In this document: positions 13,501-50,785 of the stretch, in pieces | Position numbering within the stretch: position 1 is the first letter of the stretch | How the letters are laid out: each line of letters opens with the position of its first letter | Source: Nocardia wallacei | GTDB taxonomy: Bacteria; Actinomycetota; Actinomycetes; Mycobacteriales; Mycobacteriaceae | Direction: 5' to 3' | Assembly: GCF_014466955.1 (NCBI RefSeq) | Contig: NZ_AP023396.1 | Location: 682,001-746,000 of the forward strand | Length of the DNA stretch: 64,000 nt | Program-made: the position numbers and the translations under genes | Notes under the pieces: model-generated | Database searches by the model: none | What the model was told of the DNA's origin: nothing | What the model saw: the letters and a program-made list of their open reading frames with translations, nothing else

Positions 13501-15834
13501 GTGAGCGCAGTATCTGTTTCGGAGTCCGGTGTGCGACCGATCCTCGCGGAGGCGGTCGACCTGGCTCGGCGTGCGCTCTCGGAGCTGCAGCCGACGGGTG
13601 TCGGCGAGCATCTGGGCGTCACCGCGGAAGACGAGTGCGCGGCCACCCACCACTTCGCGGCCACCCTGCCCGGCTACGCCGGATGGCAGTGGGCCGTGGT
13701 GGTGGCGGCGCCGCCGGAGGCCGAGTACGCGACGGTCAGCGAGTCCGCCCTGCTGCCCGGGCCGGACGCGCTGGTCGCCCCGAAGTTCGTGCCCTGGGAC
13801 CAGCGCGTGCGCCCCGGCGATCTGGCGCCCGGCGACCTGCTGGCCCCGCAGCCCGACGACCCGCGCCTGGTCCCCGGATACCTGATCACCGGCGACCCGG
13901 TGGTCGACGAGGTGGCCGAGGAGATCGGCCTGGGCCGCAGCCGGGTACTCAGCCGTGAGGGCCGCGAAGAGGCCGCCGAACGCTGGTACGCCGAGTACGG
14001 CCCCGACACCGACATGGCCCGCGCCGCCCCCGCCACCTGCGGCGTCTGCGGCTTCTTCGTGCCCTTGGCCGGCGCTCTGCGCTCCGCGTTCGGCGTCTGC
14101 TCCAACGCCATGGGCGCCGACGGCCACGTCGTCCACACCGAATACGGTTGCGGCGCACACTCCGACACCGTTCTCCCCACCGGTGGCGGCTCTCCCCTCT
14201 ACGAGGCATACGACGACGCCGCCGTCGAAATAATCCCCACCGCCCAACTCCGCTCCGCCGCCGAGGAGAAGCCCGCAGAGCCCGGGCGTGTCGAGTCCGC
14301 CGCCGCGGGTGAGTCCGCTCCCGGCTCGGATACTTCCGCTGACACCGAAGCGGCTGCCGTTACCGAGTCGGCGGCCGCCGCCGGCGAATCCGGTAATCGA
14401 GCGAGTGCGGTTACCGGGGCGTCGCCTGTGGATGCCGCTGGGGAAGACACGGCCTCGACCGCGGTGGATCCGGCCGATGCCGCGGCGGACACCAGCGCCG
14501 CGGTGACCGGTGAGCGCCCGGAAACGGCCGGGGAGCACGGCTCATCCCTGCCCGCCGATGAGTCCCGCCCCACCGAACCGACCGATGACGCCACCCGCGC
14601 GGAGGCCACTGAGATCGGAGGGCCCCCGGCGTCCCAGGACGCCGGTGCGACCGCACCGGACAGCGCCGCGCATTCGGATGTCCCCGAACCCCAATCCATC
14701 TCGGACAGTGCCGCCGAGACGTCGACGGATACACAGACATCGACAGCTGCCGAGGCGTCGGCGGGTGTCGAGACCTCGGAAGGTGCCGAGGCGTCAACGG
14801 GTGTCGAACCGTTGGCAGGTGCTGAGGTGTCGGCGGGTGTCGCGACCTCGGAAGGTGCTGAGGCGTCAACGGGTGCTCAACTGTCGGTAGGTGCTGAGGC
14901 ATCGGCAGATGCGGGGGCGGGGTCCCGCGCGGGTTCCTCGGAATCCGATACGGCTGCGACGAATTCCGTCGACGCGGACGATTCGGCCGGCGAGGAAACC
15001 ACCGCGAGTCTCGATGCGGCTGCCCCGAATACCGACGCTGTGGACGATGCCGTACGCGCGGACAGCGCCGCGGGCGTCTCCCACTCTTCGCCGCATGTGC
15101 CGGAACCGAGCACATCACAGCCCACCGCGAACGAGGCTGCCCGCACAGCCCAGCCAGCCACCTCCGATACGGCCGAATCCGCGACAGCTGACGACAACGC
15201 CGACGAGCCCGCCCCGGCGGGTGACGATGCCGCCGAACCCGCGGCGGTCGATGATGGCGCCGTCGAGTCTGCAACGGATGCCGACGATCTCGCCGAGCCC
15301 GCGGCGGTCGATGATGGTGCCGTCGAGTCTGCAACGGTGGCCGACAGTCTTGCCGAGCCCGCGACGGTCGGAGACGGCGCTGCCGAGTCTGCGGCGGTGG
15401 ACGACAGTCTTGCCGAGCCCGCGACGGTCGGAGACGGCGCCGTCGAGCCTGCGGCGGTGGTCGACGATCTCGCCGAGCCCGCGACGGTCGGAGATGGCGC
15501 TGCCGAGTCTGCGGCGGTGGACGACAGTCTTGCCGAGCCTGCGAGGGCCGGAGACGGTGCTGTCGAGACTGCGGCTGTTGGTGAGGGTGCGGCCGATGGA
15601 GTTGCTCGGTCGGGTGCGGCGGCCGAGGTGGGGGAGAGTTCCGGTGGGCCGGGGTCCGGCTCGGGGACCGGGGAGGTCGCGGAGGCTGTGGCCGAGGTGG
15701 GGGCTGTGGTTTCCGAGGTTCGGGAGGGGGAGCAGTCGCATGGGTCGCGGGAGCCGGGGCAGTACAGCGACGGGTGGGATGTGTCGGCGGTGCGGGTGGA
15801 GCACGGCGAGTCCGGGTCGGCGGGGGAGCACTGA
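13501..15834 (+). CDS. DUF3027 protein with long repetitive acidic C-terminal tail
   Basis: A 777-residue protein. Residues 1 to about 250 form the DUF3027 domain (Rv0877-like), including four Cys (TCGVCG, GVCSN, YGCGAH) and nearby His that may bind zinc. The remaining 520 or so residues are low-complexity, made almost only of Ala, Glu, Asp, Ser, Thr, Val and Gly, strongly acidic and surely disordered. They contain a 36-bp tandem repeat (12 residues, 14749-14910) and a 60-bp tandem repeat (20 residues, 15247-15606). Mycobacterial homologues are about 260 residues, so the tail is an extra. The start is GTG 13501. It overlaps or abuts the Hsp90-type ATPase gene downstream. Function unknown. Confidence 0.85.
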   Translation: MSAVSVSESGVRPILAEAVDLARRALSELQPTGVGEHLGVTAEDECAATHHFAATLPGYAGWQWAVVVAAPPEAEYATVSESALLPGPDALVAPKFVPWDQRVRPGDLAPGDLLAPQPDDPRLVPGYLITGDPVVDEVAEEIGLGRSRVLSREGREEAAERWYAEYGPDTDMARAAPATCGVCGFFVPLAGALRSAFGVCSNAMGADGHVVHTEYGCGAHSDTVLPTGGGSPLYEAYDDAAVEIIPTAQLRSAAEEKPAEPGRVESAAAGESAPGSDTSADTEAAAVTESAAAAGESGNRASAVTGASPVDAAGEDTASTAVDPADAAADTSAAVTGERPETAGEHGSSLPADESRPTEPTDDATRAEATEIGGPPASQDAGATAPDSAAHSDVPEPQSISDSAAETSTDTQTSTAAEASAGVETSEGAEASTGVEPLAGAEVSAGVATSEGAEASTGAQLSVGAEASADAGAGSRAGSSESDTAATNSVDADDSAGEETTASLDAAAPNTDAVDDAVRADSAAGVSHSSPHVPEPSTSQPTANEAARTAQPATSDTAESATADDNADEPAPAGDDAAEPAAVDDGAVESATDADDLAEPAAVDDGAVESATVADSLAEPATVGDGAAESAAVDDSLAEPATVGDGAVEPAAVVDDLAEPATVGDGAAESAAVDDSLAEPARAGDGAVETAAVGEGAADGVARSGAAAEVGESSGGPGSGSGTGEVAEAVAEVGAVVSEVREGEQSHGSREPGQYSDGWDVSAVRVEHGESGSAGEH
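14749..14910 (+). repeat. 36-bp in-frame tandem repeat in the DUF3027 gene
   Basis: Copies start at 14749, 14785, 14821, 14857 and 14893 (last one partial). Each encodes 12 residues of the pattern A-E-(A/V)-S-(A/T)-G-x-x-x-(S/A)-x-G. The period is a multiple of three, so the reading frame is kept if copy number changes. Confidence 0.85.
15247..15606 (+). repeat. 60-bp in-frame tandem repeat in the DUF3027 gene
   Basis: Six copies start at 15247, 15307, 15367, 15427, 15487 and 15547. Each encodes 20 residues close to VGDGA(A/V)ESAAVDDSLAEPA. Copies 3 and 5 are almost identical, which suggests recent duplication within the array; the first and last copies have diverged. Confidence 0.9.
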
Positions 15835-44856: not shown

Positions 44857-45168
44857 CCGTGTGACTCCCTGCCTCGCCTCGATGCCCGCCTCGATAGATC
44901 AGCCTGATTGTGGCAGACTTCACGCGACGTCCGGACGGGCGCCGCGACCTTTGATTTTGTCTGGAACCGCCAGGTCAACGGCTGGACGTTGCCAACAGGT
45001 CACACAAGAAGTTATTGATCCGTTAGAATCGCATGCCACATATGTCGGCCGTCATGGACGCAAATTCTCGGCCAGCCGCAGTTCTCGGTCAGACCTGCCT
45101 GCCGAGCCACGCCCACGCTCGTGGGAGGCTCGCTGATGGCGCATGGCTGGGGCCAGTTTGGAAAGTGA
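44857..45168. other. 312-bp divergent promoter region
   Basis: It separates the acyl-CoA ligase and conservon genes. A TAGAAT box at 45024-45029 fits a -10 element for the conservon, but no matching -35 lies at the right distance. No structured RNA or convincing small gene was seen. Confidence 0.4.
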
Positions 45169-48100
45169 GTGGAGATGCGTGACGCCGCTAGGTCCGGCAG
45201 GAAGCGTTGGGCGCTTAGCAACTGGGACCTGCGTTGGAAGGTTACGGCGGTACTTGCCGTCCCCCTCCTCGTCGCGGTGGTGCTCGGCGCCTCCAGGATC
45301 GCGGCTCAGTTCAGCGACTCCAGTGAGCTGGACGCCGCCCTCAAGCACGTGCAGACGATCCCGGCCGTCACCGGCCTGAGCGCCGCGGCCGCCACGGTCG
45401 CCGGTGAGCAGATGGTTCAGCTCGGCCCGAACCAGTCGCTGGTGCAGGAGGCCGATCTCACCCAGCTCGACAACGCCATCATCGCGGCGGAGAAGGCCGC
45501 GCCCAGACTGGACGGTGTGCCGGGCGGCCGGGCCGCGATCGAGGGAATGATCAACGGCGCGAAGGCCGTTCGCGCCCAGGGCACCGCACCGGCGAAGACC
45601 ATCGACGACGCTCTCAACCAGGAAGAGTCGATCCGGCAGAACAGCGTCCGTACCGCCGAGGCGATCACCTCGACCATTTCCGATCCCCGGGTCGAGGCGG
45701 CGAAGCTGCGACTGGTCGACTCCCTCAACACCCGAGCCGTGCTGATCTCCGAGACCGCGGGTATGGCCGAGGCGATTCGCGGCAACGCCAAGGACGGTCT
45801 GCGCGACTCGCAGATCGCCGCGAACACCGAGCGTCAGATGCTGGGGATTCTCGCGCACCGCTTCCCGGACGGCGATCCGGTCATCGCGGATCTGACCCAG
45901 CTGGTCAACAACCGTATCGCGCTGGTGAACGGGCCGCAGGCGGCGTCGGGTCAGATCCCGCTGCAGGATCTGCGGCAGTCGGTCCTCGACAGCCTCGCCG
46001 GCTACCAGAAGGTGGTCAGCCAGTCCAGCGCCGATATCGACGCACAGGTGAAGAGCCTGGCCGACAACGCCCGCACCGGTGCCGTCCGCTACGCCGTGAT
46101 CGTCATCGCCACCATCATGGCGGCCCTCGTGCTCGCGGTGCTGATCGCGCGCTCGATGATCGTCCCGCTGCGCAAGCTGCGCCTGGCCGCGCTGCGCGTC
46201 GCCGAGCACGACCTCGGTCACGAGGTGTCCCGGCTGCGCGACGGCGCCAGCCCCGAGGACGTGCCGCTGGAACCGATGCCGGTGCACACCGAGGAGGAGG
46301 TCGGCCAGCTCGCCCGCGCGGTCGACGACATCCACGGGCAGGCGCTGCGCCTGGCCGCCGACCAGGCCGCCATGCGTACTCAGGTCAACGACATGTTCGA
46401 GACCCTGGCCCGGCGCTCGAAGTCCCTTGTCGACCATCAGCTCTCGCTCATCGAGGCGATGGAGTACGACGAGAAGGACCCGCGCCTGCTGGAGAATCTC
46501 TTCCGGCTGGACCACCTCGCCGCCCGCATGCGCCGCAACGGTGACAACCTGCTCATTCTGGCGGGTACGCCGAAGCAGCGCCGCGGCAAGACGGCTCCGG
46601 TCGAGATCGCCGACGTGCTGCGCGCGGCCATCTCCGAGGTCGAGGACTACGAGCGGGTGAAGCTGGGCGCCACCCCGCGCGGCGCCATCACCGAACCGGC
46701 CGCCTCCGACCTGGCGCACCTGTTCGCCGAGCTGCTCGACAACGCCCTGCGCGCCTCCCCGCCGGAGACCGACGTCAAGTTCACCTTCGCCCAGGCTCAC
46801 GATCAGGGCCTGCTCATCGAGGTCGCCGACCGCGGCATCGGTATGCCGCCCGCGGAGATGGCGGAGATCAACCGCCGCCTGGAAAGCACCGCGGAGGTCG
46901 GTCCCGACACCGCGCGGCACATGGGCCTGTTCGTGGTCAGCCGCCTGGCCGAGCGGCACGGGCTCACCGTGCGGCTGCGGCCCACTTTCGACACCGCCCG
47001 CGATCCCGGCGTGACGGTGACCGTGCACGTGCCCAAGGCGATCATCGTGACGCCGGGCGGCGCCGGGGTGCAGATCCCGTCGCAGCAGTCCGGCCCGCAG
47101 CAGCAGGCGGTGCAGCCGCAGCGGCCCAGCCCGGCGTCGATGCAGATGCGCGCGGTCACCCGCACACCCAGCGGCAACATGATGGTCACCGTGGACCCGA
47201 CCGCGAGCGGGCCCATCGGGGCCGACGGCGAGCGGAACGGAACGGAACGCCCGGGCGGCGAGCGTCCGGCGGCCGCCAACGGGGCCGCGCCCGCGAATGG
47301 CGCGCTGCCGCAACGCCAGCCCGGCACCGCGGTGCCCGGCGGCCTGCCCAAGCGCGAGCCCGGAGCGAACGGCCCGACGGTCCGCCACGGTGTGGCCGGT
47401 GCCGAGCGGCGTCCCGGTGACGCTCCCCAGCCCGGTGGGCTGCCGCAGCGGGAACCGGGGGCGCACGGTCCGCAGGCGCCGGCGGCCCAGCCGGCCGCGA
47501 ATCTGCCGCAGCGCGGTGGCCCCGCGCCCGCGGCTCCGCAGGCCGGACTGGCGGCGAACATGCTCAAGCGGGCGCCGGGCGCCGGTGGTCCGCAGCCCGC
47601 CCGGCCCGCCGGATTGACGGGTCTGCCGCAGCGTCCGGGTGGTCTGCCCCAGCGTGAAGGCGGTCTGCCGCAGCGTGAGCCGGGTGCCGGTGGGATCCCA
47701 CCGCGGGAGCCCGGTGGCAGCCTGCCGCAACGTGGTTCGGAGCTGCCGCAGCGCGGTGGTTCGCTGCCGCAGCGCAATGCCGGTGGCACCGGTCTGCCGC
47801 AGCGTTCGCCCACCCCGCCGCCCGGCGAGGACGCCCCTGAGCGCCCCGCGGCCAAATTGCCGCAGCGCGAGGCCGGGCCGTCCGGTCTGCCGCAGCGGGA
47901 GCCGGGTGCGGGCGGCATTCCGCCCCGCGATCCGAAGGCCGGTGGTCTGCCGCAGCGGGAGTCCGCCGCGAACGGCCTGCCGCAGCGGGAGGGTGGCCGC
48001 AATGGTCTGCCGTCCCGGCGGCCCGGTGGCGGTCTGCCGCAGCGGGAGCCGGGTGCCGGTGGCATCCCGCCCCGCGAGTCCGGCCCGGCCGGTCTGCCGC

Positions 48101-49410
48101 AGCGCGGTTCCGGGGGTCTCCCACAGCGTGAGGCGGCCGGAACCGATCTGCCGCAGCGGGATTCCGGAACCGGCCTGCCGCAGCGTGAGTCCACCGGCGG
48201 TCTGCCGCAACGGGATTCGGGCCTGGGCCTGCCGTCCCGGGAGTCGAGCGGTGGCCTGCCGAAGCGTGACGCGGGCAGCGGCCTGCCGTCGCGCGAGCCC
48301 GGCGGTGGCCTGCCGCAGCGGGAGTCTGCTGCGAACGGTTTGCCGCAGCGGGAGTCGGGTCTCGGCTTGCCGTCGCGGGAGTCCAGTGGTGGTCTGCCCC
48401 AGCGCGAGCCCGGCAGTGGCCTGCCGCAGCGGGAGTCTGCCGCGAACGGCTTGCCGCAGCGTGAGTCGGGTCTCGGCTTGCCGTCGCGGGAGTCGAATGG
48501 TGGTTTGCCGCAGCGGGAGTCGGGTCTCGGCTTGCCGTCCCGGGAGTCCGGTGGAGGTCTGCCGCAGCGCGAGCCGGGAAGTGGCTTGCCGCAGCGGGAT
48601 TCGGGCTTGGGTCTGCCCTCGCGGGAGTCGAGCGGTGGTCTGCCGAAGCGGGACGCCGGTACCGGGCTGCCGCAGCGGGAGTCGACCGGTGGTCTGCCGC
48701 AACGGGATGCGGGTCGTGGCTTGCCGCAGCGGGAGTCGGGCCTCGGCCTGCCGACGCGGGAATCGAGTGGCTTGCCGCAGCGCGAGTCCGGCGGCAGTCT
48801 GACCCAGGATTCGGGCGGCGGTCTGCCGCAGCGGGCGGCGGGCTCGACGGGGCTGCCGCAGCGGCAGCCGGGCGCCGGTCTGCCACCGCGTCCCGCGCCG
48901 ACACCGGGCCTGAGCCTGCCCCAGCAGGAGCGCTCCGCGTCCGAGAGCGACGAGTCGGCCGGCGGCGAGGGCCGCGAGCGCGGCCGGCACAGTTTCAAGT
49001 CCAACCCGCAGAAGACCGCGTCGTTCTTCCAGACCCGGCTGCAACCTGCGGACGACTCCGGTGCGTCGATGGGCACGCCGATCTTCGCCGAGATGATGTC
49101 GGCGTGGCTCGCGGATCCCAACGCGGACCGGTCCCAGGTGGCCGCTTCCTTCGAATCACCAGGTGACGAAGGTTGGCAGGCTGCCCGGCGGGCCGTGGAG
49201 GCCCAACCCGAGAAGCGGACGGCGGCCGGATTGCCTCAGCGCGATCCCGGCAACCGCCTGGTTCCCGGTGGCGTCATCGGAAAGGCCGATAGCACGCCGA
49301 AGCGTGATGCAGAGTCCATCAGGTCAAGTCTGAGTCGTCACCAGCAGGGCGTCCGGGATGGCCGCGCAATGAGAGCAATGAACCTAACCGGAGATAAAGG
49401 AGACCGATGA
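45169..49410 (+). CDS. conservon sensor kinase (CvnA type) with LPQR-repeat tail
   Basis: A 1,413-residue protein. Residues 1 to about 630 form the usual CvnA/nitrate-sensor-like kinase: two membrane segments (about 24-42 and 306-328), an extracytoplasmic helical sensor, a HAMP part, [13 protein letters not shown] (dimer/His region) and the ATP part with [16 protein letters not shown] and [10 protein letters not shown]. From about residue 700 to 1,250 comes a low-complexity tail with about 45 copies of LP(Q/S/K/T)R separated by Gly, Ser, Glu and Asp. A conserved end follows ([21 protein letters not shown]). M. tuberculosis Rv3365c is about 876 residues, so most of the tail is extra. Start: GTG 45169 or ATG 45175. 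Overlaps the next gene by 4 bp. Confidence 0.88.
47306..48920 (+). repeat. LPQR-motif repeat region in the conservon kinase
   Basis: DNA units of 24-30 bp, each coding LP(Q/S/K/T)R(E/D) plus 3-6 linker residues, occur about 45 times. Longer super-repeats are visible around 48295-48620, where a block coding [19 protein letters not shown] and LGLPSRES recurs. The frame is kept throughout. Confidence 0.9.
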
Positions 49411-49820
49411 ACCCCGATCTAGGTGGTACGAACCGTCAGCTGGATTGGCTGGTTTCGAACTTCGCCAACGAGGTTCCGGGCGTCGCTCATGCCGTGCTGG
49501 TGTCGGCTGACGGTCTGTTGATGGCCGCGAGCGCGCAGCTGCCCGTGGACCGTGCGGAACAGCTGTCGGCGGTGACCGCGGGGCTAGCGAGCCTCTCGGT
49601 CGGTGTATCGAATCTGTTCGAAGGCGGCACCGTGCTGCAGTCGGTAGTCGAAATGGAACACGGCTACCTGCTACTGATGGCGGTCGGCGACGGCTCCTAT
49701 CTCGCGGTGCTGACCAACACGTCCTGCGACATCGGGCAAGTCGGCTACGAGATGGCGCTGCTTGTCGAGCGAGTCGGCCAGACAGTTCAGGCCACACCTC
49801 GCGTCACGATGGGTTCCTGA
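49407..49820 (+). CDS. roadblock/LC7 domain protein (CvnB type)
   Basis: A 137-residue single-domain protein of the roadblock/LC7 family, a regulator of small GTPases. Motifs: [29 protein letters not shown] and the strand [20 protein letters not shown]. Its ATG overlaps the kinase stop (ATGA), showing tight coupling. In conservons it links the kinase to the GTPase at the membrane. Confidence 0.95.
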
Positions 49821-49827
49821 TGGTGGG

Positions 49828-50202
49828 ATGGACATAGACAACCAGCGCATGGGGAGCGCCGAGCCGAGCCTCGTTCGTCCATACTCGTTGACCGCCGGCC
49901 GTACGCGGCCGACGGTCGAGTTGGCGTTGGAGGCACTCGTCGCATCGCATCCGGTCGCCCTGGAGCGGCAGTTCGAGCTCACCAACATCGAGACGTCAAT
50001 CGTGGAGTTGTGCAGAGAATCGCCGTCTGTCGCAGAATTGGCCGCCCGTCTGGGTATTCCGATCGGGGTGGCTCGAGTTCTCGTCGCCGACCTCATCGAG
50101 GCCGGTCATGTGCGGGTGTCGGCGACTTTGAAAGACGATTCGAGCGACGATGAACGTCGCGAGCTGATCGAAAGGGTTCTCAGTGGACTCCGGCGTATTT
50201 GA
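49828..50202 (+). CDS. DUF742 protein (CvnC type)
   Basis: A 124-residue protein with SLVRPYSLTAGRTRP near the start and a winged-helix-like region (SVAELAARLGIPIGVARVLV). Both are typical of DUF742, third gene of conservons, probably a DNA-binding or adaptor part. It starts 7 bp after the roadblock gene and overlaps the GTPase gene by 20 bp. Confidence 0.92.
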   Translation: MDIDNQRMGSAEPSLVRPYSLTAGRTRPTVELALEALVASHPVALERQFELTNIETSIVELCRESPSVAELAARLGIPIGVARVLVADLIEAGHVRVSATLKDDSSDDERRELIERVLSGLRRI

Positions 50203-50785
50203 TTCGACGGCCCAGGTCGATACGCGCACCAGTAAGCCCACCTCGGCGAAGATCGTGGTCGCCGGTGGATTCGGTGTGGGTAAGACGACCCTGGTCGGTG
50301 CGGTATCGGAGATCGTTCCGCTGCGCACCGAGGCATTGGTGACCAATGCCAGCGTCGGTGTCGACAGCCTGGCCGCCGTGCCGACGAAGGCCACCACCAC
50401 GGTGGCCATGGACTTCGGCAGGATCAGCCTTGCCGACGACCTGGTGCTGTACCTGTTCGGCACCCCCGGCCAGTACCGCTTCTGGTTCATGTGGGACGAC
50501 CTGATCCGCGGCGCCATCGGCGCCGTGGTGCTGGTCGACACCCGCAGGCTGGAGGACAGTTTCGCCGCGGTCGACTACTTCGAGGCGCGCAGTCTGCCAT
50601 TCCTGGTGGCCATCAACGAGTTCGACGATGCCCCCAAGTACCCGCTCGAGGACATCCGCCAGGCGCTGGCGGTGCCCGCGGACGTGCCGATCATGTCGAT
50701 CGACGCCCGCAGGCGCGAGCCGGTGAAGCAGGCGCTGGTCTCGGTGACCGAGTACGCGCTGCGCAAGGTCGTCCAGGGCTACTGA
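50183..50785 (+). CDS. Ras-like small GTPase (CvnD type)
   Basis: A 200-residue GTPase. Walker A is VAGGFGVGKTTLVG (about residues 27-40), the switch region carries TTTVAMDFG, G3 is LFGTPGQYRFWFMW, and the base-recognition site reads INEFD instead of the common NKxD, as in this family. The start is GTG 50183, inside the DUF742 gene. It completes the four-gene conservon; such GTPases control development and wall processes through the kinase and roadblock partner. Confidence 0.95.
   Translation: MDSGVFDSTAQVDTRTSKPTSAKIVVAGGFGVGKTTLVGAVSEIVPLRTEALVTNASVGVDSLAAVPTKATTTVAMDFGRISLADDLVLYLFGTPGQYRFWFMWDDLIRGAIGAVVLVDTRRLEDSFAAVDYFEARSLPFLVAINEFDDAPKYPLEDIRQALAVPADVPIMSIDARRREPVKQALVSVTEYALRKVVQGY

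Follow-up and report, generated by a model that had tools for sequence, protein, structure and literature searches.

The locus analysed here raises the question of why a sensor kinase encoded in a conservon should carry dozens of copies of one short motif, LPxR, in its tail, and which molecule these copies might engage. To answer it, the kinase is characterized at the level of its domains, its tail is compared with those of its relatives, and the presence of the motif is related to the neighboring partner genes.

Kinase, partner genes and tail

The cvnA-type gene has a GTG start and is read as one uninterrupted frame of 1413 amino acids at 45169..49410 on the forward strand of the window (the whole stretch of 64,000 nucleotides that was analysed). 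According to the Pfam domains and the hydropathy, the kinase core comprises residues 1-629 (45169..47055, +), matching the normal CvnA-type core of about 630 residues described in the earlier note. It contains two hydrophobic segments, at about residues 20-49 and 303-337, a HAMP domain at residues 325-386 (E 0.00027, 21.6 bits, under the curated 25-bit cut-off) and a HATPase_c domain at residues 513-624 (E 1e-15), as is characteristic of the transmembrane kinases of the CvnA type. A PDB sequence search with CvnA returned remote kinase ATPase domains only.

The three partner genes expected downstream of such a kinase are all present on the same strand. The gene cvnB (49407..49820, +) encodes a roadblock/LC7 protein (PF03259, 3e-23) and shares its first 4 bp with the end of cvnA. 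It is followed by cvnC (49762..50202, +), encoding a DUF742 protein (PF05331, 2.4e-34), where the listed TTG start is a mechanical assignment and an in-frame ATG is found at codon 23, and by cvnD (50183..50785, +), encoding a small GTPase with PF03029 as the best Pfam match (3.4e-31) and a weak match to Ras (0.007). The PDB sequence search with CvnC gave no match.

The tail that follows the core is long and rich in repeats, as the earlier note had recognized, but its length is 783 rather than about 600 residues. It contains 46 copies of LP[QSKT]R, close to the estimate of about 45, 47 of LPxR and 50 of [LI]PxR, while LP[QSKT]R averages 0.21 copies in 2000 shuffled tails, none of which has more than 3. 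Conservon kinases usually have few LPxR copies, although this is not a published criterion, and the 50 copies of [LI]PxR found here depart from that. On the basis of the motif count, the tandem repeats and the composition, the array is delimited to residues 713-1241 (47305..48891, +), in close agreement with the previously proposed 47306-48920. It consists of 45 LP[QSKT]R, one LPPR and three IPPR, spaced mostly by 7-10 residues (the first units more widely) and separated by spacers rich in Gly, Pro, Ser and Ala. Tandem Repeats Finder detects periods of 27, 111 and 138 bp, in line with the long super-repeats noted before, and the open frame keeps the repeat in frame throughout. The acidic part of the proposed basic-acidic motif is not a general feature: Asp or Glu follows the motif in about 60% of the Nocardia units, and in other genera this position is often Val, Arg or Thr. 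Over its 529 residues the array has 64 basic and 45 acidic residues.

In an AlphaFold2 model of residues 380-1413, built with 26 Nocardia sequences, the array has a pLDDT of about 35-47 and no regular secondary structure. The mean pLDDT of the model is 43.9, and it carries no information on docking or on contacts of the motif with the kinase.

Three further elements follow the array, all of them overlooked in the first reading of the sequence. The alignments reveal a conserved region at about residues 1272-1354 (48982..49230, +) that has an array-free counterpart in other genera. Next to it is a terminal LPQR box at residues 1355-1367 (49231..49269, +), whose motif at 49231 is the one of the 46 LP[QSKT]R that stands apart from the array. 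Such a box is found in 61 of 61 Nocardia genes and has a family-wide equivalent, and it is this box, together with the array, that provides the C-terminal LPxR motif of a CvnA-type kinase. Finally, the alignment shows a conserved C-terminal segment at residues 1379-1399 (49303..49365, +), which is presumed to be a helix from its residue pattern, the AlphaFold2 model showing no helix there.

The array in Nocardia and in a second genus

The array is present in all 60 Nocardia orthologues fetched, with 15-46 copies of LP[QSKT]R; these orthologues were fetched for their long open frames. The genome of the window consists of 2 contigs with a completeness of 100%. The array is thus no assembly artefact, and the relatives do not have random, unrelated tails of similar length, the two outcomes that the earlier note had named as arguing against a conserved role.

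The differences between the window tail and that of the N. wallacei gene support growth by recombination, as had been suggested, or by slippage: the indels are 7, 10, 18 and 9 residues long, corresponding to one or two units, in addition to small ones of 2 and 1. The substitutions show that the motif itself is under purifying selection while the spacers drift. Specifically, the motif codons of these two genes differ by 36 synonymous and 2 non-synonymous changes, compared to 83 and 44, respectively, in the other codons of the array (p = 1.7e-4). Across the 1878 units of 61 genes, Arg follows GLPQ in 1324 of 1343 cases, Leu occupies the open position of G?PQR in 1324 of 1398, and Pro that of GL?QR in 1324 of 1358. 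Comparison of unit pairs gives synonymous differences at Leu, Pro and Arg in 32-63% and non-synonymous differences at spacer codons in 65-80%, but in this count the search pattern itself largely fixes the three motif residues.

These data bear on the possibility that only one box is useful and that the additional copies are products of neutral slippage or unequal crossing-over with no role of their own. The tandem units, the unit-sized indels and the variable copy number are indeed what slippage would produce. Selection on Leu, Pro and Arg inside the array argues against this, as does the finding that none of the 61 complete Nocardia genes (60 of which had been selected by their long open frames) has fewer than 15 copies of LP[QSKT]R. 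The same box has, moreover, been expanded in a second genus, and we consider neutral drift an unlikely explanation for the array.

In this second genus (g113), 7 of 8 genomes have a match, with 7, 4, 4, 3, 1, 1 and 1 boxes. The boxes share one position in the tail and the spacers differ, which suggests a separate expansion on a smaller scale. Three LPxR codon groups in a row, searched as a DNA pattern, gave matches in 70 of 296 genomes, but the result is noisy, as the reversed control pattern also matched. Among 30 scanned loci (L273-L302), L290 and L292 have tails of the conservon-kinase type with small LPxR arrays in frame. L290 matches the kinase profile (6e-21), as none of the other 28 loci does, and the same tail as in L292 is found at L334 of the same genome.

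The LPxR box and the partner genes

The box is not restricted to expanded tails. In a first survey of 58 conservon kinase tails it is found in 57, compared to 18.4 expected from shuffling, with 0-6 LPxR-like boxes per kinase and 137 in total (24.1 expected). In 48 of these tails a box lies 45-105 residues from the C-terminus, where 5.0 would be expected; this count is independent of where the kinase domain is taken to end. A second, out-of-sample survey gives a box in 38 of 39 tails (10.0 expected) and near the end in 31 (3.1 expected). The kinase alignment used for the genome searches contained some misplaced rows, and a version with five rows omitted was used for the tail counts of the first survey, for the second survey and for the kinases without CvnC. 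Taken together, 95 of 97 CvnC-linked kinases have the box, including 17 of the 18 whose tails are at most 170 residues long. A profile of the terminal module yields 95 matches, of which 89 lie directly before a DUF742 gene and one more is in a conservon kinase; the remaining five are elsewhere and weak (E 3e-4 to 7e-3), so that no strong match of this profile falls outside conservon kinases. The motif is conserved in conservon kinases throughout the class, where the usual number of LPxR in a kinase is one to a few, with one box close to the C-terminus.

A different picture is obtained for related kinases without CvnC, where the box is found in 1 of 11 and absent in 10. Eight of the 11 form one orthologue group in one genus, all four kinases with CvnB only being among them, and the number of loss events is therefore small. 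The box-free kinases of this set have short tails of 8-66 residues. At the four CvnB-only loci the C-terminal segment is retained and the box is absent (4/4), while the kinases that stand alone (L355-L358) have tails of 11-12 residues with neither element. At loci with CvnC only, the box is present in 4 of 6; of the other two, L157 has the C-terminal segment without the box and L388 has neither. The comparison of CvnC-only with CvnB-only loci (4/6 vs 0/4, p = 0.076) is not significant alone, and the first-set CvnC-only loci were inspected over about 1.2 kb downstream of the kinase, such that CvnD could come from elsewhere.

It is worth mentioning here that a mirror-tree analysis of 43 conservons does not single out CvnB, CvnC or CvnD against the tail module. 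For all partners the correlation with the kinase core (0.75-0.85) exceeds that with the module (0.63-0.70). An apparent better tracking of the partners by the module than by the core proved to be an artefact of misplaced kinase ends.

Possible roles of the motif

On the basis of these patterns, our tentative and preferred reading is that LPxR is a docking motif for one of the cytosolic partners from the conservon, most likely CvnC, which would make the Nocardia tail an array for multivalent docking. Each LPxR would be a docking site for the DUF742 protein in a disordered cytoplasmic tail, while the C-terminal segment would make a separate contact, perhaps with CvnB. In line with this, CvnA9 is reported to contact both CvnB9 and CvnC9 (PMC8510531). 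The array would then keep many CvnC molecules per kinase dimer near the membrane. Because CvnC homologues are reported to be exchange factors and CvnB homologues GTPase activators, such an arrangement would shift the local balance towards GTP-loaded CvnD, the copy number setting the gain. The more elaborate proposal, in which LPxR holds CvnC, the Nocardia array is a many-valent scaffold whose copy number tunes the G-protein gain, and the other genus amplified the motif independently, is possible but rather doubtful.

The platform for conservon partners envisaged in the earlier note has accordingly gained support and is still the best reading, while the wall target mentioned along with it is implausible: the tail comes after an ATPase domain that is cytoplasmic, and none of the 61 proteins contains LPxTG. 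A sortase substrate can be dismissed on the same count, the window protein also having no hydrophobic segment after residue 337.

Alternatively, the boxes could dock on the dimerization or ATPase domains of their own kinase and hold it inactive, with the array favoring the closed state. Motif and kinase do share one chain, and the strong matches of the terminal module are limited to conservon kinases. The kinases that keep the core and lack the partners, however, also lack the boxes in 10 of 11 cases (eight being one orthologue group). An external partner fits this better, and such cis-regulation is quite improbable.

A role as arginine finger has also been considered, where the Arg of LPxR completes the GTPase active site of CvnD and the array constitutes a dense GTPase-activating surface. 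The Arg is as invariant as Leu and Pro, and it was pointed out, cautiously, by Wuichet and Sogaard-Andersen (PMC4316618), because the group 2 MglA/MglB proteins have no conserved arginine finger. Leu and Pro are, however, kept nearly as strictly as Arg, as in a docking motif, and the box is kept at 4 of 6 CvnC loci without a nearby CvnB or CvnD, although CvnD could be supplied from elsewhere. In addition, MfpD, a CvnB homologue, is itself reported to be a GTPase activator (PMC9769811, PMC13015309), and we regard the arginine finger as improbable.

Finally, a flexible or phase-separating tether for lipids, nucleic acid or a non-conservon protein would suit the low complexity, the lack of predicted structure and the basic excess of the array, but is very improbable given that the boxes are missing where the partners are missing and that the terminal-module profile has no strong match beyond conservon kinases.

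Conservon kinases signal to their G protein with no response regulator in between, and LPxR has been known since 2014 with no function assigned to it. With its dozens of copies, the Nocardia array is a natural bait and offers a handle on this function. Loci with CvnB only or with the kinase alone serve as natural deletions, and the small arrays of the second genus, separate from that of Nocardia, as a natural replicate; together they bring the question of what binds LPxR within reach of a simple test, with CvnC as the first candidate.

The motif itself is not new, contrary to the initial impression that no description existed. LPxR is a conserved C-terminal motif of conservon histidine kinases, with no function assigned in the accessible text of the 2014 paper (Wuichet and Sogaard-Andersen, PMC4316618). 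The kinase family, the motif and its location in a C-terminal extension are the same there, whereas that text does not mention an array, Nocardia or a link to CvnC. In the openly accessible literature searched, we found no report of an LPxR array. What is new here is the amplification across Nocardia, the smaller separate expansion in another genus and the gene context of the box. CvnA9 and CvnA8 of Streptomyces coelicolor are likewise membrane kinases whose genes accompany those for a roadblock protein, a DUF742 protein and a GTPase; for CvnA8, the available part of a 2026 paper mentions only unstructured terminal regions and does not use the words repeat, tail or LPR. The actinobacterial C-terminus of MfpE, the mycobacterial CvnA homologue of the mfp conservon, has been described as lacking notable conservation (PMC13015309, in the portion available). 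The homologues in the other genera of the family, presumably including the MfpE type, share a tail plan of box A, an FFxAR segment, a GW segment, box B and the C-terminal segment; two or three boxes are found at 21 of 26 of these loci and an array at none. Multivalent scaffolds based on short linear motifs present many copies of one motif in a disordered tail. The Nocardia tail has a similar layout, with a receptor that we infer to be most likely CvnC.

The window kinase and its tail

The gene at 45169-49410 (+) codes for a membrane kinase of 1413 residues that has a HAMP and a HATPase_c domain; together with the roadblock (CvnB), DUF742 (CvnC) and small GTPase (CvnD) genes behind it, it forms a complete conservon. 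The earlier note had described about 600 residues dominated by some 45 LP(Q/S/K/T)R motifs behind the kinase core. Such a tail is indeed present, with 46 motifs (mean 0.21 and maximum 3 in 2000 shuffled tails), while its length, 783 residues, and its plan, which is more ordered than claimed, had to be revised. The array of LPxR units spans residues 713-1241 and is followed by a conserved region, a separate LPxR box (13 residues), and a conserved C-terminal segment, presumed from its residue pattern to be helical. The genome containing the window consists of two contigs.

Very long open frames lie antisense to the kinase gene, at 45052-49044 (-) (1330 aa) and 46803-49121 (-) (772 aa); they are expected from the high G+C content combined with the in-frame repeat and carry no gene evidence. 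Another long low-complexity frame, of 777 aa, is found at 13501-15834 (+), where an Ala-rich acidic stretch follows a more complex N-terminal part. Its tandem repeats have periods of 30, 60, and 180 bp at 15232-15575, whereas those at 14740-14906 have periods of 36 and 72 bp.

Distribution, probable origin, and turnover of the array

A homologue of the kinase core is found at E <= 1e-120 in all 148 genomes of the genus search. The array is present in each of the 60 Nocardia genes fetched from these, which were picked for long open frames and contigs reaching beyond the gene, such that an array-less gene could be missed; with the window gene included, the motif number ranges from 15 to 46 LP[QSKT]R (median 26). 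A second, named scan, not selected by frame length, covered the best 80 of 133 relatives. All of these carry a Nocardia label, many come from genomes overlapping the 60-gene set, and N. wallacei is the nearest with a core identity of 98%. The gene is complete in 47 of these 80 loci (17-46 LP[QSKT]R); of the remaining 33, 31 have a frame that is cut off within the tail by the end of the contig. In the draft Nocardia genes L235 and L239 the frame shifts inside the array, and both more LPxR and the terminal segment are read in a different frame, which is either a draft or sequencing error or real. Between 1 and 23 LPxR occur in 27 of the 33 partial tails. The six without any have lengths of 0-85 residues, no more than roughly that of the stretch preceding the first box, so that no named locus contradicts the array.

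Another 26 homologues (L107-L132, core identity mostly about 40%) come from further genera within the family and order. Most have the same tail plan without the array: first an upstream box, LPxRxPGxSGI, then the FFxAR and GW segments, and finally a terminal box, GLPxRxPGARLVPG, ahead of the C-terminal segment. The box count is two or three in 21 of them, and the remaining five have 4, 1, 1, 0, and 0, one of the zero-box homologues (L115) sitting at a contig start. Within the genome that contains the window, each of the 6 kinases of this type has at least one box as well, the window gene itself (L009) being cut short in that comparison. LPxRxPG is kept in 137 of 183 first units (three per Nocardia gene) vs 362 of 1634 middle units, from which we infer that the array probably grew from the upstream box. 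A non-Nocardia genus, g113, has 7, 4, 4, 3, 1, 1, and 1 boxes at the same tail position in the seven genomes, of eight, that gave a match; the spacers are acidic-proline, unlike those of Nocardia, and this expansion is that of a single lineage, separate from Nocardia. At L178, a 1450-aa kinase frame ends in a 679-residue tail with six LPxR boxes, several of which follow the LPxRxxGAxG pattern. It resembles a transitional form between single boxes and arrays, and the frame contains a second, partial match to the kinase profile further upstream.

The 61 Nocardia genes contain 1878 LPxR units, most commonly spaced by 9 or 10 residues and with Q in the third place in 79%. With the tested letter left free, R follows GLPQ in 1324/1343 cases, L fills G?PQR in 1324/1398, and P fills GL?QR in 1324/1358. 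It is possible that the array represents plain repeat drift. Between the window gene and that of N. wallacei, synonymous differences outnumber non-synonymous ones by 36 to 2 in the L/P/R codons of the array and by 83 to 44 in the other array codons (Fisher p = 1.7e-4, the codons of one gene not being fully independent). The indels are of 7, 10, 18, 9, 2, and 1 residues, mostly unit-sized, which together with the conserved L/P/R codons indicates unit-wise turnover of the array with the motif preserved.

The box in conservon kinases and its possible partner

The LPxR box is conserved in sequence and position, is under selection, and is associated with gene content. A DUF742 gene search in 59 genomes of the class gave a match in 29, above the cut-off in 27. 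The kinase was identified in 58 of the 60 loci of the first survey set, the other two lying at contig ends. At least one [LIMV]PxR is present in 57/58 tails (18.4 expected from shuffling), and it lies 45-105 residues from the end in 48/58 (5.0 expected; 0-12 for permuted or substituted control motifs). A second set of 40 loci from 6 further genomes, none used in any tail model, has the kinase directly upstream in 39, with a box in 38/39 (10.0 expected) and near the end in 31/39 (3.1 expected).

A terminal-module profile of 33 rows (32 first-set kinases, of 50 with a suitable box, and the window) gave 95 matches at E <= 0.01 in the 59 genomes; 89 immediately precede DUF742, a further one falls within a DUF742-linked kinase, and five weak ones lie elsewhere. 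By this profile the module is found in 86/120 kinases with DUF742, a figure partly circular for the genomes contributing to the profile, vs 0/7 without, three of the seven being contig-end cases by coordinates; two partial second matches were removed before the count. In 12 genomes outside the profile the module is present in 44/64 kinases with DUF742.

With CvnC nearby, the box is found in 95/97 kinases, both exceptions being at loci with CvnC that lack CvnB and CvnD. Where CvnC is absent it occurs in 1/11 (LPRR at the extreme C-terminus of L341), 8 of these 11 forming a single orthologue group of one genus. Four of this group, the CvnB-only loci L342 and L352-L354, retain the C-terminal segment in tails of 37-41 residues without a box, and its other four, the kinase-alone loci L355-L358, have 11-12-residue tails with neither. 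The box is present in 4/6 CvnC-only loci (L155, L156, L166, and L372, not L157 and L388); the comparison with the CvnB-only loci gives p = 0.076. These patterns point to CvnC as the partner of the box, judged from few, related loci whose box-free tails are short. The C-terminal segment is not strictly tied to CvnB, since L155, L156, and L157 have it without CvnB. A co-evolution test on 43 conservons singled out no partner for the tail module.

As to the loci themselves, L342 and L352-L354 are reduced conservons of a kinase and a roadblock gene, with no CvnC or CvnD in the stretch read. In the six CvnC-only loci a DUF742 gene comes directly after the kinase, and the sequence read shows neither a roadblock nor a GTPase match (for L155, L156, L157, and L166 it extends about 1.2 kb beyond the kinase); they are apparent CvnA-CvnC pairs.

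A proposed docking model and the known Cvn systems

A signal would alter the kinase, whose disordered tail would carry the docking sites; these would keep CvnC at the membrane, where CvnD would be loaded. CvnC is described as an exchange factor in mycobacteria in a portion of PMC13015309. The many sites in Nocardia would raise the local CvnC concentration with the C-terminal segment remaining single, tilting the balance. We infer every binding step of this chain, and a structure model of the window kinase gave nothing bearing on docking. Alternatively, LPxR may possibly regulate the kinase in cis, or may act as an arginine finger.

The CvnC pattern agrees with the summary of PMC8510531, in which CvnA9 interacts with CvnB9 and CvnC9; the wording of its introduction is that all four Cvn9 proteins interact with one another, and according to PMC4316618 the Cvn9 contacts are dependent on kinase and GTPase catalytic activity. 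The 2026 preprint PMC13015309 reports no notable conservation in the same C-terminal extension, and the 2026 CvnA8 paper PMC13343842 mentions unstructured terminal regions. The LPxR motif is already known from Wuichet and Sogaard-Andersen (PMC4316618); our own survey recovered it independently of that paper.
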